Below, piece after piece: positions 104 through 14,742 of a stretch of 64,000 bases of DNA (its first letter is position 1; each line of letters opens with the position of its first letter). This DNA is from an uncultured Eudoraea sp. (GTDB taxonomy: Bacteria; Bacteroidota; Bacteroidia; Flavobacteriales; Flavobacteriaceae): assembly GCF_947490415.1 (NCBI RefSeq), contig NZ_CANLGX010000001.1:124001-188000 (forward strand), in the 5' to 3' direction. The notes under the pieces are model-generated. The model ran no database searches. It was not told the DNA's origin and was given only the letters and a program-made list of their open reading frames with translations. Position numbers and translations under genes: made by a program.

Positions 104-1006
104 CTAATATGCCCACATGTCCTGTTCCCTGTCTCGTATTGTTTCTTTAATACGATCTGCTTCAAGCAACTGGAATAGTGCATTGTCTGCTATGTAATCA
201 TTAATTATTCGATCACCCTGAACATTGTCCTCTCTATAGATCAGACCATTAAAACGTCTGGCATTCAACAACATATCAAAAGATATTGGCTGAGCCGAGT
301 TTTGTTGGTTAAAAACCTTGGCTCTGTGTAATACCTCTCTGGCACTCGGATACCACACCCAAAAGAGTTCAACTTTATTCTCATTGGGATCCATAGATTC
401 ATCATCTACAAAGTTGACATCGGGTGCTACCGGGGCAATACCCAACAGTCGATACTTCAATTCGCCCTGCCGCTTATCAAAATACCATATCCCTTTGATA
501 CGATATTCTTCAATATCCGCCGCCGTAAGTTCCCTCTGGTTAATATATTCGGGGGAAAGTTGTTCACCGGCATTGATTTGCTCATATCCAAGATCTGTGG
601 TATCAACTTTTTTCAAAGTAGCTTCCAGGTCACTGAAATTTCTTTTTTCCGTAAAATAGGAATCCACATATACGTCAGTAAGTTTACCGTTTTTAATGTT
701 TTTCATAAAAACATCATATAACGATCTTCTGTCCGCACCGATATCAATGGTGTCAAGCGGATAATACAGTGGAAAATTTACTCTTTCATCAAGATCAATT
801 ATCTCCCATACAGTCTTAGACCAAAGGATATCCCTGTCATCCACATAGCCGTATGGCAGCGGAGAATCATTATCCGCCGCTATTTGCGCTTCTGTCTTTT
901 TTCCAATTTCCTCAGGCAACTTGGCATTTAAAATATTAGCCTGTGCCATCATAGATATTGGTAGTAGCGCTACAGCTCCAGCAATTAAAACATTCTTCCA
1001 ATTCAT
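104..1006 (-). CDS. gldN: Gliding motility / type IX secretion protein GldN
   Basis: 300 residues with an N-terminal signal peptide (residues 1-22, ending near MMAQA). The family is known to be a periplasmic component that forms a ring with the lipoprotein GldK beneath the outer membrane and is needed for type IX secretion and gliding. Recognised from the overall sequence (for example the YGYVDDRDILWSKTVWE segment near residue 52) and from its place as last gene after gldK, gldL and gldM. It starts 23 bases after the gldM stop and is co-transcribed. No gldO-like duplicate follows in this window. Confidence 0.95.
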   Translation of the reverse strand: MNWKNVLIAGAVALLPISMMAQANILNAKLPEEIGKKTEAQIAADNDSPLPYGYVDDRDILWSKTVWEIIDLDERVNFPLYYPLDTIDIGADRRSLYDVFMKNIKNGKLTDVYVDSYFTEKRNFSDLEATLKKVDTTDLGYEQINAGEQLSPEYINQRELTAADIEEYRIKGIWYFDKRQGELKYRLLGIAPVAPDVNFVDDESMDPNENKVELFWVWYPSAREVLHRAKVFNQQNSAQPISFDMLLNARRFNGLIYREDNVQGDRIINDYIADNALFQLLEADRIKETIRDREQDMWAY

Positions 1007-1029: not shown

Positions 1030-2598
1030 TTAGTTCGTAATCTCCACAATTACCGGAGATACTTTCTTCAGTTTATAGCTTTTGTTATTCGTGATATACG
1101 CTTGAATATCGAATACCTGAACAGCATCACCTCTTTTGGCTCTTTTTAAGGCCGATTTAGCTCTTGAATCCAGTTTGTTGCCATCTACACTTACGGTAGG
1201 TTGCCCAGGCACTTTGAATTTAAATCCACTAATTGCAAGATTCAAGTCAAAATCAAAATCTTCAAGTAATGCACCAATTGTTGCAATTTCAAGATTTCTT
1301 CTAGGCATCTTGGCACTTCCTGTTTCTCCTCGAATAGATCCGGATGGTCTTGGAATATCCTTGATTCTGAACTCAGATTTTGAGGAAACACGTTGGCCGT
1401 CAGGCAATGTACCAGATGCGACAATTGTAACTGTTCTTCCCGTTCCCGGGTTCATGATATACTTACTGCCTTCTCTTTTCTTAAGACCTGGTGCCGATGC
1501 ACTCACCTTGTTATTTGGAATTCCAGGAATCGAAATCGACATAGGGTTAGAAACCCCGCGATATACCACATTCATCTTATCTGCTGCAATTAATGCTGCA
1601 TTAGGCTTAGTGATCGTGGCAAATGTTTGAGAAACAGGAACTTCCGTTCTCTCACCATCCTGAATAAATACCAGGTTACCGGCAATCTTGTGGTCTCCGG
1701 GAGCTCCGGCACTAACTAAAAGTTTTACCTGACCATTTTTGATCTCATAATCCTTACCTTCATTCAGCTTTCTTCCATCTAAAGTAAGATTTACCTCATT
1801 TGGTCTTGTTGTAGCATCTTTACGACCTAATACAACTGCCCCTGAGAATTTCTCACCAGCATAAAATGCCGATTTTTCCTGCTCCAGTAGCGTGGTATAA
1901 TTAGTCATAGAAACTTCACTGGTCAGCTGACCTTCTAACATAGACTTTAAAGCATCCTGCTCTGTAGCCTTAACATCAGATTGTATCTGAGTTATTTTAG
2001 TTAGAGAAGCAACAACCGGAAAACCTTCGAAATGATAGTTGATCCAATCCTGTTTTGTTCCATCTCTTTTCTCAACTTTACCATTAGCATCACCAGTTTC
2101 AAATCTGGTTTGAACAGAAGCCTTAACTTCATTCATGCTTTCCGGTAAAATAGCCGAAACTTGAGTACGGTAATCAGTAATCCTCTTTAAGAATTCTTTT
2201 CCTTCCGGAGCCAGGTTATCACCTTGAAAAAATTTCTGATCTAAATAATCAGACTTATCCATAACCTGATAGTCTTTAGGATCTTTAATCTCGGTTAACA
2301 TTTTACCTTTAAGGGCCTCCAGATAGTCATAATAATCCTGGGACAATTCCTTAATCTTTTTGGCATCTTCCAGTAGCGGACCAAATTTTTCCGCATTTTC
2401 AGATGCTTTAGTTTCTAAACCATTTAAGAACGCTACGTTGTTCTCCGTGGTTTTTGCGTTAGAAGCTTCCAACTTTTCATTCATAAGACCGAATGCAGCT
2501 AGAACTTCCTTGCTCATATTTAACGCCAGCATCGCGATGAAGATCAAATACATTAAGTTTATCATCTTCTGACGTGGTGACAATTTTCCTCCTGCCAT
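1030..2598 (-). CDS. gldM: Gliding motility / type IX secretion motor protein GldM
   Basis: 522 residues. A single membrane helix lies near residues 12-35 (MINLMYLIFIAMLALNMS), followed by a long periplasmic region. In this family GldM and GldL form the proton-driven inner-membrane motor of type IX secretion, and the periplasmic domains of GldM reach toward the GldK/GldN ring. The length matches known GldM. It sits 53 bases after gldL in the conserved gldKLMN order. The long open frame on the opposite strand here (1136-1630) is a shadow. Confidence 0.96.
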   Translation of the reverse strand: MAGGKLSPRQKMINLMYLIFIAMLALNMSKEVLAAFGLMNEKLEASNAKTTENNVAFLNGLETKASENAEKFGPLLEDAKKIKELSQDYYDYLEALKGKMLTEIKDPKDYQVMDKSDYLDQKFFQGDNLAPEGKEFLKRITDYRTQVSAILPESMNEVKASVQTRFETGDANGKVEKRDGTKQDWINYHFEGFPVVASLTKITQIQSDVKATEQDALKSMLEGQLTSEVSMTNYTTLLEQEKSAFYAGEKFSGAVVLGRKDATTRPNEVNLTLDGRKLNEGKDYEIKNGQVKLLVSAGAPGDHKIAGNLVFIQDGERTEVPVSQTFATITKPNAALIAADKMNVVYRGVSNPMSISIPGIPNNKVSASAPGLKKREGSKYIMNPGTGRTVTIVASGTLPDGQRVSSKSEFRIKDIPRPSGSIRGETGSAKMPRRNLEIATIGALLEDFDFDLNLAISGFKFKVPGQPTVSVDGNKLDSRAKSALKRAKRGDAVQVFDIQAYITNNKSYKLKKVSPVIVEITN

Positions 2599-2651: not shown

Positions 2652-3299
2652 TTAGTTTTTACTCATTGCAGATAACATACCTCCATATACTCCATTTAAG
2701 GAAGAAAGATTGGAAGCAAGAGATTCCATTTGGTCTTTAAGAGCACTTGCATTTTGAACAACTTCTTCATTTACAGAAGCCTGTCTGCTAGCGCTTTCCA
2801 ATTGTACTTTATACAAGCTGTTTAAAGACTCCATTTGAGACGCTGCCTCTACCATTTCATCTGAATATTTTTTGGTAGATTCCATTGCATCTACTGAAGG
2901 AGCAATACCTTTTGCAGCACCTTCAAAATTGCGAATGCTTTCTCCAAGGCTTTCCATAAGGTTAGCGTCTATGTTTGCTTCTTTTAAAAGCTCATCTAAT
3001 TTTCTGGACAATATGCCTTCTGCTTCTTTCGCATCCTGAACATCATTTTTGTTACCAGACATACCGCCTGCTAATTCAGGGTATACCAGAGACCAATCGT
3101 ATTCGTCATCTACCGGTTCAAATGCACTAATTGCAAAAATAAGAGCTTCTGTAATAAGACCTACCGCCAGAAGAAGACCACCTGTTAGAGGTCCAAATTC
3201 CCAGTGAAGGATTTTAAATAACGCACCAATGATAACCACCGATGCTCCCAGGCCATAGGCCATGTTAAATAGTTTCTTTGTTGATTTTGACTGTGCCAT
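2652..3299 (-). CDS. gldL: Gliding motility / type IX secretion motor protein GldL
   Basis: 215 residues with two membrane helices in the first 60 residues (around 12-30 and 35-58), followed by a cytoplasmic, mostly helical and Glu/Ser-rich tail. GldL is known as the inner-membrane partner of GldM in the type IX secretion motor; an acidic residue within its membrane helices is implicated in proton coupling. It lies between gldK (77 bases upstream) and gldM. Confidence 0.96.
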   Translation of the reverse strand: MAQSKSTKKLFNMAYGLGASVVIIGALFKILHWEFGPLTGGLLLAVGLITEALIFAISAFEPVDDEYDWSLVYPELAGGMSGNKNDVQDAKEAEGILSRKLDELLKEANIDANLMESLGESIRNFEGAAKGIAPSVDAMESTKKYSDEMVEAASQMESLNSLYKVQLESASRQASVNEEVVQNASALKDQMESLASNLSSLNGVYGGMLSAMSKN

Positions 3300-3376: not shown

Positions 3377-4732
3377 CTATTGTGTTGAGTCTTCCTCGCC
3401 CATATAATCTTGTACGGTCCTAAAACCGATATAACTTCTGGCGGAATCTCTATACTCATAATCTCTGGTACTTACCTGTAGGAAATAAGCAACATCTTTC
3501 CAGGAACCTCCGCGTATAACTTTTCTTTTATTACCATAATCACCGCCATTGGGATTCATAGTAGATACGTAATCGTATGAATTTGCGTCATAGCTGGAAT
3601 TAGTCCATTCAGAAACATTCCCTGCCATATTGTAAAGATTGTAATCATTTGGCTCATAAGACTTGGCTTCTACTGTATACAAAGCTGCATCAGCTGCATA
3701 ATCACCTCGCTGTGGTTTAAAGTTAGCCATAAAACAGCCCGTATCGCTAATCACATAAGGACCACCCCAGGGATAAGTTCCACTTTCGATTCCACCTCTG
3801 GCGGCATATTCCCATTCGGCTTCTGTAGGTAACCTGAATCCGTTAACAAATTGTCTGCCTCGGCTCTTCTGGTCATCATTTTTAAATTTTGTTCTCCAGT
3901 TACAAAAAGCCTGGGCCTGCTGCCATGAAACTCCAACAACCGGATAATCACTATAGGCATCGTGCCAGAAATAGTCATTATGCATTGGTTCATTATAGGA
4001 ATATTCAAAGTCTCTTATCCAAACTGTCGTATCCGGATAGATCTCCAATTCCTCATGTTTAATAAAATCCTTTCTTCTTGCATCCCTTGAACGTGCAGCT
4101 GCCTCAATGTCCATCCAGCTGTAACTGTATTTAAGCTTTGTAACATCTACGGTGCGCTGACCGTTATATGATTCCTCTTCAGGAATATATATTGAATCCA
4201 TTATTTCTGTATAGTATTCATCAGGATATTCCGAAGTGTCCCAGACCAAATCCTGATCTCTATTTAGGCTTCTTCCTTCATAACCAGTCTCACCCATCCC
4301 TGAATAATTATCCAGCATATACTTGTCATAAGTAGACATTTGGGTAGTATCTGCATCCTTAAAGGCATATTCGCCGATACCTTCATCCTCCGGACCCATT
4401 CCTAATTCATCAGCCAGGATGGCCAACTTAGTTCTTACGATGGAATCTTTCACCCATTCTACAAACTGGCGATATTCACTGTTTGTTATTTCCGTATCAT
4501 CCATATAGAATGATCTTACGGTAACAGTTTTGGTTGGAGCGTTAAGAACCTTCCCTACGTCTTCCTCACTTTTACCCATGATAAATGATCCTCTAGGGAT
4601 CAGTTCCATTCCATAAGGTTTTTCCGGATACCACTTTTTACCCTGGACTCCGACTAGTTCTCCTTTTGTCTTAGACCCACAACTAGTGAGCAAAAAAACA
4701 AACGCTATAGATAATAACAATAGCTTCTTCAT
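3377..4732 (-). CDS. gldK: Gliding motility / type IX secretion lipoprotein GldK
   Basis: 451 residues. The signal peptide ends in a lipobox (LLTSC, Cys18), so it is an outer-membrane lipoprotein. The rest is a formylglycine-generating-enzyme/sulfatase-modifying fold: RLPTEAEWEYAARGG in the C-terminal half, then VIRGGSWKD and IGFRTVQ near the end. Known role: forms the periplasmic ring with GldN under the type IX translocon; it is not thought to be an enzyme. First gene of the gldKLMN operon. I see no clear TAnnTTTG box in the 116 bases upstream. Confidence 0.95.
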   Translation of the reverse strand: MKKLLLLSIAFVFLLTSCGSKTKGELVGVQGKKWYPEKPYGMELIPRGSFIMGKSEEDVGKVLNAPTKTVTVRSFYMDDTEITNSEYRQFVEWVKDSIVRTKLAILADELGMGPEDEGIGEYAFKDADTTQMSTYDKYMLDNYSGMGETGYEGRSLNRDQDLVWDTSEYPDEYYTEIMDSIYIPEEESYNGQRTVDVTKLKYSYSWMDIEAAARSRDARRKDFIKHEELEIYPDTTVWIRDFEYSYNEPMHNDYFWHDAYSDYPVVGVSWQQAQAFCNWRTKFKNDDQKSRGRQFVNGFRLPTEAEWEYAARGGIESGTYPWGGPYVISDTGCFMANFKPQRGDYAADAALYTVEAKSYEPNDYNLYNMAGNVSEWTNSSYDANSYDYVSTMNPNGGDYGNKRKVIRGGSWKDVAYFLQVSTRDYEYRDSARSYIGFRTVQDYMGEEDSTQ

Positions 4733-4848
4733 ACTTTAGGTTAAATTTCGATTAAGACTATAAACAGTATTCACAATTATTATTCTCTAAAACTGCATTT
4801 TGAATAATTTATTGTATAAAACTGTCTATCCTTTAAAATAATTTAGTG

Positions 4849-6006
4849 TTAGTTAAAACCTTTCTTATAGGCCTTGAACCACCTTTCGGGAATATTTTGG
4901 TTACATGCGTCTAAATAGTCCTGTTCAGTGCATGGTAATAACGCAGGTGAATTTATTTTATTATGTGAAGATAAAATTGATGGAATCTCAACCCACCACC
5001 TTTCGGTAAGTAAACTTTTATAAAAAATCAATTGTTCGGTTTCCGTAGGCACATTAAACTTGTTGAAGTCCTTGCTTTTAGCACTCGGTAACTCTTTTAT
5101 TCTAAAATTATATCCTTCTATAAAATACCATATTATCTGTGATATTAATTGAAAGGATTGTACGGTATTCTCGCTTTCATATATTCCAAATATTGCGACA
5201 TTATCACTCATTCCCGCATATCTGGCTATTGCACATATTTCTCTTCCATTAAATCCATTTGGTGAAAAATTCTTAGACCCATCAATCTCGCCTGCTTTAA
5301 TTGCCCTGGCATCCATACTTACAATATGTGCGTTTCGCAATACGGGTTCTGCCAGTGAAATGTCGGAGGTTATTTCTCCCAGCCTGTATGCATCAAAAAA
5401 TAGGCGGTCCATCAGATCTATTTCTTCCTGAGCATTAAAGTAGCTTTGATAACCAATATTAGAAAAATTGAAAAGATTGTTGGGCTTATCAGTAATTATT
5501 TTACTCATATAGGAATGCGAAGAAATAAGTTCCTCATCTGCCCCGAAATCGAACCTGCTGTCTATTGACACCAGATTTACCATATCCTTAATTTTATCAA
5601 ATGCCCTATAGGTAGGGTACGTAATATCCTGAGTCGCACCAATTATAATCGGAATTACATTTTCTTCCAGTAATTCGGCTACAATTTCCTTTACAACAAA
5701 ATAGGTATCTTCAACCGATTCGCCTTCTTCTATATCACCGAGGTCGACAAAGACTGAATTCCAATTACCCATCATTAGCTTGTAAAGCTGAATTCTGATC
5801 TCAGTAGTATCTAGGCGCTCTGTTTTCTTTTCAAATGCATTTCTTGATTCCAGAACTCCCATTAAGGCAAATGAAGCATTGGCAAGGACTGGCAGTCCTT
5901 TTTTCTCTGTATGCTTGTGAATATTCCTGCCAAGAGATTGTGGGGGTAATAGCTCACAGTGCGCGAGGGCCATTTCATCTACAGGAAGTAAAAAATCAAA
6001 CGCCAT
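4849..6006 (-). CDS. Arginase/formimidoylglutamase-fold protein, probable pseudoenzyme
   Basis: 385 residues with the arginase/ureohydrolase fold, probably what pipelines name formimidoylglutamase. The three metal-binding motifs are recognisable but degraded. The GG(D/G)H motif reads GATQD (123-127), so the His is Gln126. The DAHxD motif reads DSRFD (149-153), so the His is Arg151. The SxDxD motif reads SMDAR (230-234), so the second Asp is Arg234. Three of six manganese ligands are missing, so I infer it has no ureohydrolase activity. It lies 15 bases after topA and probably shares its transcript, with gldK next downstream. No histidine-degradation genes are nearby. Fold confidence is high; function unknown. 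Confidence 0.8.
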   Translation of the reverse strand: MAFDFLLPVDEMALAHCELLPPQSLGRNIHKHTEKKGLPVLANASFALMGVLESRNAFEKKTERLDTTEIRIQLYKLMMGNWNSVFVDLGDIEEGESVEDTYFVVKEIVAELLEENVIPIIIGATQDITYPTYRAFDKIKDMVNLVSIDSRFDFGADEELISSHSYMSKIITDKPNNLFNFSNIGYQSYFNAQEEIDLMDRLFFDAYRLGEITSDISLAEPVLRNAHIVSMDARAIKAGEIDGSKNFSPNGFNGREICAIARYAGMSDNVAIFGIYESENTVQSFQLISQIIWYFIEGYNFRIKELPSAKSKDFNKFNVPTETEQLIFYKSLLTERWWVEIPSILSSHNKINSPALLPCTEQDYLDACNQNIPERWFKAYKKGFN

Positions 6007-6021
6007 ATTGGTACGCTAATC

Positions 6022-8496
6022 TTAGGTTTTCTTAGTCTTCTTTTTCGGTTTTTTCTTTTCGAGTAATGCTTTTGCCTCTTCCAGGGAAACATTGGCAGCA
6101 TCTACCTCTTTGGCAAGCTCAACCTTGGTCTTGCCTTTAATAATTGTATGCCTTCCCCATCGCGCCTTTTCAATCCGAATGCCTTCATCAGACCATTCCT
6201 TGATAAGCTTCTCTGCTTCTTTTTGCTTTTTAGATTCTATCAACTCAATAATATCAATTTCCGAAAGATTATCAAAATCATATTTTTTATTCACATTAAT
6301 GAACATACCATCCCATTTGATAAAAGGTCCGAAACGACCTTTACCTTTTATTACATCTTTATTTTCATAAACCGCAATAGGGGCATCTGTCTTTTGCTTT
6401 TCGCGAATTAATTCTATTGCCCTTTCAAGATCGACATCAAAGGCACTCTCACCTTTGTCCAGAGAGACAAATTTTTTGCCGAATCTAACATAAGGACCAA
6501 ATCTGCCAACATTGGCCTCTACTTCTTCTCCTTCAAATACTCCTAACTTTCTGGGTAGTTGGAATAGCTCCATTGCTTCCTCATAGGTAATCGTATTAAG
6601 GGATTGTTCAGGGAGTAAACTGGCAAATAACGGCTTGTCCTCTTCCTCGACCGTACCAATTTGAACCATAGGGCCAAATCGTCCCAAACGAACAGCAACT
6701 TGTCTTCCCGTTTTAGGGTCTTTACCCAGGACACGTTCTCCGCTTGCACGTTCCGCGTTTTCTTCAACGTCCAGTACTTTGGGGTGAAAGTCCTTGTAAA
6801 AATCCTTCATTACCTTTTTCCAATCTTCCTGACCTTCAGCAATTTCGTCAAAATCTTTCTCCACTTTGGCAGTAAAGTTATAATCCAAAATATGCGCAAA
6901 ATGATTCACTAAAAAATCATTGACAATCATCCCTATATCTGTGGGTACCAATTTGCCTTTATCTGACCCTATCACTTCCGTGAGAGATTTTTCCTCAACT
7001 TTATCTGATTTTAAAATCAGTTGTGAATACTTTCGTTCTTCACCTTCAATACTTCCTTTTTCCACATAACCCCTGTTTTGAATGGTCGAAATTGTTGGGG
7101 CATAAGTTGAGGGTCTTCCAATACCCAGCTCCTCCAGTTTCTTTACCAAAGTAGCCTCTGTATATCTATACGGGGGTCTTGTAAACCGTTCTGTTGCGGT
7201 TATATAATTATAGAATAACTGATCGCCGGTTTTCATTGCGGGAAGCAAACCTTCCTGCTCTTCAGCTATATCCTCTTCGTCCTTACCCTCAAGATAAACC
7301 TTTAAAAACCCATCAAATTTAATGACTTCACCATTCGCGGTAAATTCTTCCTGATAAGAGTTCGACTTGATTTTTACATTAGTACGTTCTAATTGTGCAT
7401 CGCTCATTTGTGAGGCAAGTGTACGTTTCCAAATCAATTCATATAATTTAGACTGATCCCTTTCCAGTGAAGGAGATTGCAAATTCATATCCGTGGGTCG
7501 TATCGCCTCATGTGCCTCCTGAGCTCCTTTAGATTTGCCCTTATAATTTCTGACTTTACTGTACTTTTCACCATAATTCTGAATAATGGTGTCTTTGGCA
7601 GCCCCTATTGCCTCCCCGGATAAATTTACGCTGTCTGTCCTCATATACGTAATCAGACCAGCTTCATATAAACGCTGGGCAACCTGCATAGTTCTCGCTA
7701 CTGAGAAATATAATTTACGGGATGCCTCCTGTTGTAAAGTGGAAGTAGTAAATGGTGCGGCCGGCGATTTTTTTGCGAGTTTTTTATCCAGACTTGCAAC
7801 ATTAAATAGCGATCCTGCATTTTTATTTAAAAATACCTGAGCCTCCGCTTTCGTTTGGAAGCTCTTCCCAAGTTTTGCTCCAAATACATTCCCATTCACT
7901 GTTTTGAATTCCGCCACTACTTTATAGGAAGCTTCAGGATTAAAAACCTCAATGTCCCGTTCCCTCTCAACAATTAAACGAACAGATACAGATTGAACCC
8001 TTCCTGCAGATAAACCGGGTTTAATTTTTTTCCAAAGGACAGGTGATAACTCGTATCCAACCAACCTATCAAGAACTCTTCTTGCCTGCTGGGCATTTAC
8101 CAGGTTATAATTTATTTCTCTGGGGTTTTCAATGGCCTTTTGAATAGCTGATTTGGTAATGGAATTAAACACAATACGTTTAGTTTTGGATCGATCAAGG
8201 TCCAGTGTCTCCGCCAAATGCCAGGAAATAGCTTCTCCTTCCCGGTCTTCATCACTCGCCAGCCATATAGTATCCGCTTTTTTAGCAAGGTCCTTCAGCT
8301 TTTTAACCAGGGCCTTCTTGTCCTCGTCAACAATATATTTGGGTTTAAAATCATTTTCGACATCAACTCCTAACTCTTTGGAAGGAAGATCGGCTATATG
8401 GCCAAAACTGGATTCAACTTTAAAGTCTTTTCCCAGAAATTTTTCTATTGTTTTGGCCTTTGCAGGCGACTCTACGATTACTAAATTCTTAGCCAT
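6022..8496 (-). CDS. topA: DNA topoisomerase I (type IA)
   Basis: 824 residues. It relaxes negative supercoils. The Toprim domain is at the N terminus (VIVESPAKAKTIEKFLG, with DEDREGEAISWHLAE near residue 81). The active-site tyrosine lies in ITYMRTDS (around residue 288). The C terminus carries short repeats of the topoisomerase C-terminal type (GRFGPMVQIG, GRFGPYVRFG, GRFGPFIKWD) instead of Cys4 zinc fingers, then a lysine-rich tail. This layout is usual in Bacteroidota. The downstream arginase-fold gene is 15 bases away. Confidence 0.97.
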   Translation of the reverse strand: MAKNLVIVESPAKAKTIEKFLGKDFKVESSFGHIADLPSKELGVDVENDFKPKYIVDEDKKALVKKLKDLAKKADTIWLASDEDREGEAISWHLAETLDLDRSKTKRIVFNSITKSAIQKAIENPREINYNLVNAQQARRVLDRLVGYELSPVLWKKIKPGLSAGRVQSVSVRLIVERERDIEVFNPEASYKVVAEFKTVNGNVFGAKLGKSFQTKAEAQVFLNKNAGSLFNVASLDKKLAKKSPAAPFTTSTLQQEASRKLYFSVARTMQVAQRLYEAGLITYMRTDSVNLSGEAIGAAKDTIIQNYGEKYSKVRNYKGKSKGAQEAHEAIRPTDMNLQSPSLERDQSKLYELIWKRTLASQMSDAQLERTNVKIKSNSYQEEFTANGEVIKFDGFLKVYLEGKDEEDIAEEQEGLLPAMKTGDQLFYNYITATERFTRPPYRYTEATLVKKLEELGIGRPSTYAPTISTIQNRGYVEKGSIEGEERKYSQLILKSDKVEEKSLTEVIGSDKGKLVPTDIGMIVNDFLVNHFAHILDYNFTAKVEKDFDEIAEGQEDWKKVMKDFYKDFHPKVLDVEENAERASGERVLGKDPKTGRQVAVRLGRFGPMVQIGTVEEEDKPLFASLLPEQSLNTITYEEAMELFQLPRKLGVFEGEEVEANVGRFGPYVRFGKKFVSLDKGESAFDVDLERAIELIREKQKTDAPIAVYENKDVIKGKGRFGPFIKWDGMFINVNKKYDFDNLSEIDIIELIESKKQKEAEKLIKEWSDEGIRIEKARWGRHTIIKGKTKVELAKEVDAANVSLEEAKALLEKKKPKKKTKKT

Positions 8497-8515: not shown

Positions 8516-8523
8516 CAAAAGTA
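8516..8523 (-). promoter_or_regulatory. Possible -7 box for topA
   Basis: Reads TACTTTTG on the minus strand, matching the Bacteroidota TAnnTTTG box, 19 bases before the topA start codon. No TTTG lies at the usual 17-23 base spacing upstream, so only the -7 half is supported. Confidence 0.45.
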
Positions 8524-11951: not shown

Positions 11952-11984
11952 TTTGTCACTTGTTTGCAGAATATACTATCTTTG
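11952..11984 (+). promoter_or_regulatory. Promoter of the miaB gene cluster
   Basis: TTTG at 11952-11955, then 21 bases, then TATCTTTG at 11977-11984: a good match to the Bacteroidota housekeeping promoter. Transcription should begin near 11990. An upstream in-frame start at 11960 would lie inside this promoter, which supports 12020 as the real start of miaB. Confidence 0.7.
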
Positions 11985-12019
11985 CAAACTGTTTGAGATA
12001 TCGCAGAAGAGACAAGAGA

Positions 12020-13465
12020 ATGGAGAAAATTATTGAGGAAAAAAATCAGGGTACCGCACTTACACTGGATAAAGACCAGAAAAACACCCGTAATTTATAC
12101 ATTGAAAGCTATGGCTGTCAAATGAATTTTTCTGACAGCGAAATTGTTGCCTCTATTTTAGCGCAAGAAGGATTTAATACCACTAATTCTTTGGAAGAAG
12201 CAGACCTTGTTTTGGTTAACACATGCTCTATTCGGGAAAAAGCGGAGCTGACTGTAAGAAAAAGGCTTGAAAAGTTTAACGCCATAAAGAAGACCAGGCC
12301 CCACATGAGGGTAGGTGTTCTCGGGTGTATGGCAGAAAGACTGAAGAGCAAGTTACTGGAAGAAGAAAAGATTGTGGATATGGTGGTTGGACCCGATGCT
12401 TATAAGGATCTGCCAAATCTTATCCGAGAAGTAGACGAGGGAAGGAATGCAGTTAATGTTATACTTTCCAAGGATGAAACATACGGTGATGTGGCCCCGG
12501 TAAGATTAAATTCAAATGGGGTAACAGCCTTTGTATCCATTACTCGTGGCTGTGATAATATGTGTACTTTTTGTGTTGTTCCCTTTACAAGGGGTAGGGA
12601 GCGCAGCAGAGATCCTCATTCAATTGTTAATGAAGTAAATGAACTCTGGGAAAAAGGATTTAAGGAAGTTACCTTATTGGGCCAGAATGTTGACAGTTAT
12701 TTATGGTATGGCGGAGGTTTAAAAAAGGATTTCGACGCTGCATCAGCAATGCAGAAAGCCACAGCCGTGAATTTTGCCAATTTATTGGAATTGGTTGCGC
12801 AAGCACAACCCAAAATGAGGGTTCGCTTTTCTACTTCAAACCCACAGGATATGACCCTTGATGTTATTGAAACCATGGCCAGGTTTAAAAATATATGTAA
12901 TTACATTCACCTGCCAGTACAGAGTGGAAGCGACAGAATTTTAAAGGCAATGAACAGATTGCACACCAGAGAAGAGTATTTTGATTTAATAAATAATATA
13001 AGGAACATTTTGCCGGACTGTGCCATAAGCCAGGACATGATTACAAGCTTCCCAACCGAAACCGAGGAAGATCACCGGGATACTTTATCCTTAATGGAAT
13101 ATGTAAAATATGATTTTGGTTTTATGTTTGCCTATTCCGAACGGCCTGGTACAATGGCCGCGAGAAAACTTGTTGACGATATCCCTGAGGAAGTAAAAAA
13201 AAGAAGATTAAATGAGATTATTGATCTGCAATTAAAGCATAGCTTTTTTAGAACAAAACAACACTTGGGTAAAGTTGAAGAAGTTCTTATTGAAGGGACA
13301 TCCAAAAAATCTGATTTAGAATGGATGGGGCGTAATTCTCAAAATACCGTTGTGGTTTTTCCTAAAGAGAACTATTCTGTTGGAGAATTTGTAATGGTAC
13401 GAATAGAAAATTGCACCTCTGCCACTTTATTGGGCAAAGCAGTTGGTTATTCTGAAAACAATTAA
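12020..13465 (+). CDS. miaB: tRNA-2-methylthio-N6-dimethylallyladenosine synthase
   Basis: 481 residues from the chosen ATG; an open frame extends to 11960 but that start is inside the promoter. Radical-SAM methylthiotransferase that adds the 2-methylthio group to i6A37 of tRNAs. Three cysteines for the auxiliary cluster are visible in [17 protein letters not shown] and VLGCMAE. The radical-SAM motif CxxxCxxC is in [19 protein letters not shown]-like RNA-binding end follows. Two bases separate it from the next gene, so the two are probably co-transcribed. Confidence 0.97.
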
Positions 13466-13467
13466 GC

Positions 13468-14742
13468 ATGGAAAGTGTACAGGCAATAAAACAACGTTTT
13501 GAGATTATAGGCAATGATCCAAAGCTCAATCGTGCCCTAGAAAAGGCTATTCAGGTTGCTCCTACAGACATTTCTGTCCTGGTCACAGGTGAAAGTGGTG
13601 TTGGAAAAGAGGCGGTGCCAAAAATTATTCACTCTTTATCCCATAGAAAACACGCAAAATATATAGCCGTAAATTGCGGGGCCATTCCCGAAGGCACTAT
13701 AGATAGTGAGCTATTTGGCCATGAAAAAGGGGCCTTTACCGGCGCAACCCAAACCAGAAGGGGGTATTTTGAAGTTGCAGATGGCGGTACTATCTTTTTG
13801 GATGAAGTAGGAGAACTTCCACTTACCACTCAGGTGCGACTACTCAGAATATTGGAAAATGGGGAATTCCTGAAAGTGGGATCTTCTCAGGTCCAAAAAA
13901 CCAATGTTCGCATTGTGGCTGCCACTAACATGAATATGATAGAGGCCATCAAAGAAGGAAAATTCAGGGAAGATTTATATTATAGATTAAGTACTGTAGA
14001 TATTCATATTCCACCTCTTAGAGAACGAAGGGAGGATATTCATTTATTGTTCAGAAAATTTGCTTCGGATTTTGGGCAGAAATACAAAATGCCCACTATA
14101 AGGCTTCAGGATGATGCTATACAACTTCTCACGAAATACAGATGGCCGGGAAATATCCGTCAATTAAGAAATGTTGCTGAACAAATATCTGTTTTAGAAG
14201 TGGGAAGAAATATTAGTTTATCTACTTTGAACGAATATTTGCCAAATGCCAGCGATTCTAATCTTCCCGCCGTTATTGGAAGGCAAAAAAAAGAAAATGA
14301 CTTTAGCAACGAACGAGAGATACTCTACAAAGTCTTGTTTGATATGAAATCAGATCTGAATGATCTCAAAAAACTTACTTTGGAAATGCTTCAAAACAAA
14401 GATTCGGCTAAAGTACAGAAGGAAAATGAAAATTTAATCCGTAAGATATATGGCACCAATGGGGAAGATATCGAGGATATTGAGGAAGAAAAGAGTAAGG
14501 CATTAAAAGTCTTACCCCTTCCGGAAGCCAGAATAGAAACGAAACCTGAAATACTACAGGAAGATAAATATCATTTTGCCGAGGAAATACAAGAGGAAGA
14601 AACACTTTCTTTACAGAAAAAGGAAATTGAATTAATCCAAAAATCACTGGAAAGAAATAGAGGAAAACGAAAGGCGGCGGCGGCAGAATTGGGAATTTCT
14701 GAAAGAACACTTTATAGAAAGATAAAACAATATGATTTGTAA
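13468..14742 (+). CDS. Sigma-54-dependent activator lacking an input domain
   Basis: 424 residues. The protein begins directly with the AAA+ sigma-54 interaction domain: Walker A GESGVGKE (41-48), the sigma-54 contact loop GAFTGA (88-93), Walker B GGTIFLDE (106-113). An acidic linker of about 120 residues follows. The last 45 residues form a Fis-type helix-turn-helix (RKAAAAELGISERTLYRKI). There is no receiver, GAF or PAS domain at the N terminus, so activity must be controlled by another protein, by the linker or by expression. It follows miaB by 2 bases and precedes lptE. Its targets are not known from the sequence. Confidence 0.93.
   Translation: MESVQAIKQRFEIIGNDPKLNRALEKAIQVAPTDISVLVTGESGVGKEAVPKIIHSLSHRKHAKYIAVNCGAIPEGTIDSELFGHEKGAFTGATQTRRGYFEVADGGTIFLDEVGELPLTTQVRLLRILENGEFLKVGSSQVQKTNVRIVAATNMNMIEAIKEGKFREDLYYRLSTVDIHIPPLRERREDIHLLFRKFASDFGQKYKMPTIRLQDDAIQLLTKYRWPGNIRQLRNVAEQISVLEVGRNISLSTLNEYLPNASDSNLPAVIGRQKKENDFSNEREILYKVLFDMKSDLNDLKKLTLEMLQNKDSAKVQKENENLIRKIYGTNGEDIEDIEEEKSKALKVLPLPEARIETKPEILQEDKYHFAEEIQEEETLSLQKKEIELIQKSLERNRGKRKAAAAELGISERTLYRKIKQYDL

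Follow-up and report, generated by a model that had tools for sequence, protein, structure and literature searches.

What can a protein of the arginase family be doing next to the genes of type IX secretion and gliding, once it has lost half of its metal ligands? The question is raised by a gene in the first part of a 64,000-nucleotide stretch of DNA from an uncultured Eudoraea sp., referred to below as the window. The gene (4849..6006, minus strand) starts with ATG and is open over its full length, and it encodes an arginase-fold pseudoenzyme of 385 residues, which we call PSA. A first, sequence-only reading had described it as intact, without frameshift, and packed behind topA and before gldK, and both statements held. 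Upstream, topA (6022..8496, minus strand, assigned with family models) is separated from it by 15 nt, and downstream the gap to gldK (3377..4732, minus strand; TIGR03525, 604 bits) is 116 nt. On the same strand follow gldL (2652..3299; TIGR03513, 234 bits), gldM (1030..2598; TIGR03517, 458.5 bits) and gldN (104..1006; TIGR03523, 267.1 bits). Divergent to topA, miaB and then a sigma-54 activator gene are found at 11960-14742, an arrangement shared by many relatives (for instance L199, L206 and L215); among 100 loci that were clustered, MiaB was present in 32 and a sigma-54-type cluster in 28. No PADLOC match, which would have pointed to a defence role, was obtained for PSA up to an E value of 0.1, and the literature searched, whose scope leaves out most subscription papers and preprints, gave no description of PSA as a pseudoenzyme.

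That the ureohydrolase fold is kept, as first proposed, was confirmed in two ways. The Pfam Arginase model PF00491 matches PSA with 38.9 bits, for a cutoff of 22. An AlphaFold2 model, computed with 60 sequences (mean pLDDT 71.8, pTM 0.79, the loops near residues 152-166 and 188-211 being weak), retrieved arginase-family chains in all of the best 50 Foldseek rows and all of the 50 VIA-align 2 rows listed. Ranked by Z, the best among those listed was 2a0m, the formiminoglutamase of T. cruzi (Z 27.3), aligned to residues 20-303 of the model with an rmsd of 2.6 over 258 residues. The family profile of PSA likewise reaches solved chains only to about position 307. Past the part that solved arginase-family chains cover lies a C-terminal extension, residues 304-385 (4852..5097, minus strand), which the enzymes compared do not have. 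Modelled alone, residues 298-385 gave a weak model (pTM 0.55), whose best Foldseek E value was 1.1, with no PDB match.

We then come to the metal site. The first histidine position is occupied by Gln126, in the motif GATQD (residues 123-127; 5626..5640, minus strand), the second by Arg151, in DSRFD (residues 149-153; 5548..5562, minus strand), and the last aspartate position by Arg234, in SMDAR (residues 230-234; 5305..5319, minus strand). An active binuclear ureohydrolase has six metal ligands, and the alignment thus bears out the claim that three of the six were lost in the window's protein, which retains D149, D153 and D232. The placement of the ligands by MAFFT was the same as that of the HMMER alignment of the family profile to two solved formimidoylglutamases, 3m1r and 4myn. 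The three changes do not carry the same weight. In the HMMER profile alignment the first-His position of the B. subtilis enzyme 3m1r is occupied by Asn, and the native T. cruzi enzyme would have Asn there too, to judge by the title of PDB entry 4myn (N114H variant), so that the change at residue 126 alone is not diagnostic. Unlike it, the changes at residues 151 and 234 are, judged from the alignment, diagnostic.

Is this loss a peculiarity of one genome? An alignment of 184 sequences was used, from which 13 were set aside: nine enzyme rows (three from the window's genome, six from outside the PSA clade) and four shortened rows of family f19. Counts are therefore given over 171 members; the window's protein and its 80 close named relatives make up 81 of them. 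None of the 171 has six ligands. Three are kept in 126 members, four in 25, two in 5, one in 14 and none in a single one. The first His is retained in 25, mostly in f18 (10/13), f22 (6/6) and f15 (4/4), the second in 3; 13 members retain the last Asp, and 12 of these belong to f5, a family whose other ligands are mostly gone. As read from this alignment, ligand loss runs throughout the PSA clade. A search for a full ligand set in an orthologue at the same locus found none in the clade; full or near-full sets were seen at L194, L246-L249 and L257, all outside the clade. The nine enzyme rows have His at the first position in seven cases and Asn in two, and Asn replaces the second Asp in one. What did not stand is the expectation that Gln, Arg and Arg might themselves be conserved in orthologues: these replacements are lineage-specific, with Q in 126, R in 109 and R in 85 of the 171 at the three positions, respectively.

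A tree of 105 rows was computed by maximum likelihood. The branch that splits the 96 PSA rows from nine enzyme rows has an SH-aLRT support of 98, and the PSA stem is long; the method is a quick one, branches are long and the four f19 rows were left out. This supports a single origin of PSA at the level of the sequences compared. The family groups form mostly single clades in the tree, as expected under vertical descent. PSA is a family of its own, with members in several orders of a single bacterial class. The nearest relatives among those listed are from Eudoraea, with 93-98% identity, in a listing that may omit records very near the window's genome.

The gene is under strong constraint. Between the window and four close relatives, dN/dS of PSA was 0.025-0.040, in the same range as its neighbours topA (0.032-0.057) and gldK (0.023-0.067). 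Two trivial explanations were discarded. A decaying gene is ruled out by these ratios and by open frames of at least 351 residues in the 171 members, one of which (L107) ends at a contig end. A local loss or a sequencing error is also ruled out: the ligand losses are common to relatives under strong purifying selection, and are consequently no local accident.

Where does selection act, if not on the metal ligands? Five residues, Q187, E220, R224, W337 and C359, are identical in all 171 members. Gln187 (5446..5448, minus strand) is also found in 5 of the 9 enzyme rows, so its conservation is partly inherited. E220 and R224 define a new family signature, E220-P221-x-x-R224 (5335..5349, minus strand), and each occurs in 2 of the 9, whereas W337 and C359, both in the C-terminal extension, occur in none. 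Conservation along the chain has shifted too. For 90 diverse PSA proteins, mean pairwise identity is 40.1% over residues 176-303 versus 33.8% over residues 45-175, where two of the three old motifs lie, and this N-terminal part is ahead in 503 of 4005 pairs. Seven hutG-like enzymes show the reverse (36.8% versus 39.3%, N-terminal part ahead in 14 of 21 pairs). In the four shortened f19 proteins little of the N-terminal half aligns, and Q187 and W337 are nevertheless kept in all four, E220, R224 and C359 in three. These four (L226, L237, L238 and L222) measure 288-342 residues, with an eroded N-terminal half, and three of them are found one gene away from a gldJ-like gene. Taken together, the five invariant residues, the shifted conservation and the retention in f19 indicate a new selected site, and the comparison points to a selection that moved off the metal pocket to the Q187/E220/R224 region and to W337 and C359 of the extension.

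The name of formimidoylglutamase, which the sequence-only reading had called misleading, can be put aside. With the NCBIfam hutG model PSA scores 43 bits, far from the cutoff of 229.15. Its neighbours are topA and gldK-N, not genes of histidine degradation; neighbours of the urocanase or amidohydrolase type accompany enzyme-like matches instead, as at L246. The window's genome contains three further PF00491 proteins, all with six ligands. On the matched stretch one scores 281.2 with hutG, over the cutoff, another 215.7 with agmatinase, also over the cutoff, and the third 174.2, which is 0.1 bit under the agmatinase cutoff. Since a true hutG is present elsewhere in the same genome, formimidoylglutamase is the wrong name for PSA.

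With moderate confidence, we propose that PSA is an old, repurposed cytosolic protein with a binding or regulatory task, not dedicated to secretion. Tree and alignment support a single event in an ancestor of several orders of the class, in which a hutG-like enzyme would have lost the complete two-metal site and acquired the C-terminal extension; since then the product has been maintained by the strong purifying selection seen in the dN/dS ratios. A metal site that is lost in a protein almost unchanged over several orders probably means a different job. The new role first suggested, such as binding or regulation, is in this sense backed as to its novelty by the loss of the site, the strong conservation and the displaced selection, and binding or regulation as such is what we infer from them. 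Most likely, PSA would be a metal-free cytosolic binding protein, regulator or adaptor, in which Q187, E220 and R224, invariant as they are, may form one site with W337 and C359. More tentatively, it could be a sensor or adaptor that connects a cytoplasmic signal with machinery of the envelope and, where PSA and the type IX/gliding motor coexist, with that motor as well; this we regard as a possibility, less probable than repurposing in general.

The main rival is a type IX role: PSA would serve type IX secretion and gliding as a dedicated cytosolic accessory; it might, for instance, bind GldL at its cytoplasmic part or tune expression of the gldK operon. Gene order was the first evidence examined. 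Of 174 PSA loci, 131 have topA immediately upstream; gldK follows immediately in 100 and after one intervening gene in 28, this gene belonging to a cluster with PorP/SprF as its tested representative. For the 139 loci of the window's order, the figures are 130 for topA and 126 for gldK within one gene, which speaks for the accessory, as does a linkage to gldK in f20 and f21. In f19, 3 of 5 PSA loci lie one gene away from a gldJ-like gene (404-411 bits, under the GldJ cutoff of 458.2). Linkage to gldK and linkage to a gldJ-like gene are two arrangements, and this counts for the same explanation. Against it, in f17, f18, f22 and f23 neither topA nor gldK is linked to PSA (0 of 28 loci). The proposed synteny with topA and gldK is thus found in the window's order and breaks down in these four families. 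In f5 (15 loci), topA is adjacent in 9 and gldK in 3, and the topA-PSA pair is kept with gldK elsewhere in part of f5 and in the draft genome G082, where topA and PSA are together and porP-gldKLMN is on another contig. Several f5 loci (among L178-L192) have glycosyltransferase, EpsG-like and polysaccharide-export genes after PSA, in the place of gldK.

PSA can also be missing while the gld genes are present: in G010 topA adjoins gldK, and in G012 it adjoins porP/gldK. These two junctions (L264 and L263, respectively) are natural deletions, useful for comparison. Outside the window's order the neighbours of PSA are mixed, with no recurring metabolic neighbour or pathway over the class. An S13 D-Ala-D-Ala carboxypeptidase cluster was noted near PSA in 9 of 13 f18 loci (L219, L230, L232, L234, L236, L243, L252, L253 and L256), and a SIS-domain (MurQ/GKRP-like) cluster in five f22/f23 loci (L227, L228, L239, L245 and L254); these neighbours hint at a possible cell-wall or envelope theme.

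TAnnTTTG is the Bacteroidetes -7 promoter motif. It occurs before topA, at 8516-8523 on the minus strand, and not in the gap between PSA and gldK; the motif is not enriched in the window (67 occurrences, 79.5 expected). A consensus scan found no terminator-like site in this gap (4733-4848), and one sigma-70-like match at 4804-4776 on the minus strand (9 of 12 positions), promoter-like matches overall being at the chance level (30 versus 27.5). Judging from the spacing, PSA and topA are probably co-transcribed in the window's order, perhaps together with the type IX genes.

Distribution was compared next, with GldM as the marker of the system. Among 395 genomes of the window's order, PSA is matched in 308 and GldM in 313; comparison of the lists by eye gave 305 genomes with both, 3 with PSA only, 8 with GldM only and 79 with neither. 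One of the 305 (G013) has a hutG-like match only, and stricter counts are 304 with both and 9 with GldM only. This co-occurrence favours the accessory, but at the order level it is confounded by shared descent and by gene adjacency in incomplete assemblies. The three genomes with PSA only (G020, G107 and G289) are assemblies 55-86% complete, and among the 20 GldM-negative genomes of the order that were listed, 12 are f16 genomes of 0.3-0.6 Mb. In a phylum sample, 155 of 392 genomes match PSA at E ≤0.001; 58 of these are outside the class, with weak matches that are hutG-like where examined. Of the 101 genomes over the GldM cutoff in this sample, 96 have PSA, again in favour of the accessory, and 5 do not (G564, G614, G702, G686 and G719). 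Class members of the sample include one with PSA and no GldM (G694) and three with neither. A profile search in 17 genomes without clear PSA found nothing in 13 (E up to 1), and in the remaining four yielded three matches at E above 0.006 and the hutG-like match of G013.

Exceptions therefore go both ways, and PSA is not present or absent together with the system: GldM occurs without PSA in at least 8 genomes of the order and 5 of the class, and three f17 genomes (G694, G801 and G805) have a full-length PSA and no GldM match. In this family PSA is present in all 93 genomes and GldM in 90. The three occupy at least two separate places in the PSA tree by the starred branches, and their GldM losses, with PSA kept, may be recent. 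SprA was not found in them either, with a model that also missed 8 of the 16 GldM-positive genomes of the same search. These eight (G396, G737, G760, G784, G785, G791, G804 and G814), some of them single-contig, represent either a real loss of the translocon or a search miss. The association with gliding and type IX secretion that the locus had suggested is consequently real as gldK linkage in the window's order (126/139), and does not extend to four other families (0/28) or to a strict tracking of GldM. One further point leans towards the accessory: PMC5445135 describes PorL as having a large cytoplasmic domain, and states that in 2017 no type IX protein other than PorX was known to be wholly cytoplasmic. 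On balance we consider a dedicated accessory somewhat improbable. The linkage to topA and type IX genes looks old and not obligatory, and the repurposed protein we prefer would then probably serve a wider envelope or growth task.

Could PSA still be an enzyme, with a single metal or a new chemistry, perhaps through C359 or the E220/R224 pair? Several acidic positions of the old site are largely kept (D149 in 159, D153 in 149, D232 in 153 and E277 in 125 of 171), and invariant polar residues and one invariant Cys are at hand. The f5 family argues against it. There, among 15 members, D149 is found in 5, D153 in 1, D232 in 1 and E277 in none, and the gene is still present, so that the old site cannot be needed in f5. 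Since a recurring metabolic neighbour over the class is also missing, a residual or new catalysis seems unlikely to us. A last alternative, that PSA is an inactive subunit which activates a true arginase-family paralogue coded elsewhere, as MetCb does, is highly improbable in spite of that precedent, of the metformin hydrolase chains that top the Foldseek list and of at least one other PF00491 match in 52 of 56 PSA genomes (by match counts), because no second arginase gene is labelled beside PSA in the gene orders listed (where the best match per locus is labelled) and because PSA is the sole PF00491 match in the four others (G011, G483, G694 and G801), which makes an obligatory active paralogue unlikely. 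A fifth genome with one PF00491 match, G022, is of another kind: there the search missed PSA, and the one match belongs to a different protein.

PSA, which 308 of 395 sampled genomes of the window's order carry and which also occurs in other orders, is easily misread as a histidine-degrading enzyme. According to one genome paper (PMC11278836), formiminoglutamase was the only step of histidine degradation detected. This would fit such a misreading, if the gene concerned is a PSA. If PSA was indeed repurposed, it would constitute a broad family of arginase-fold pseudoenzymes, and its invariant residues offer a direct handle for mutants.

Among known systems, HutG (T. cruzi 2a0m and 4mxr, B. subtilis 3m1r) is the nearest family to PSA by sequence and fold, 3m1r being the best profile match to the PSA family (E 1.2e-17). 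PSA differs from it by the absence of the second His and last Asp ligands, by its C-terminal extension and by its position outside a hut operon. The arginase-like protein of T. brucei and the arginase domain of some Fusobacteria are without a two-metal centre, as stated in PMC11271267, and this is their likeness to PSA, set side by side by description only. The same source recognises MetCb, a subunit of metformin hydrolase (8ryi, 8snf, 8x3g), as a pseudoenzyme and reports that proteins of the MetCb clade are metal-free, differ at three to five of the six ligand positions and are required by MetCa. PSA resembles MetCb in having the arginase fold with several metal ligands lost, three in the window and two to six over the family. 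The gene of MetCb lies beside that of its active partner, whereas PSA has no adjacent active partner, and in the window its place is between topA and gldK.
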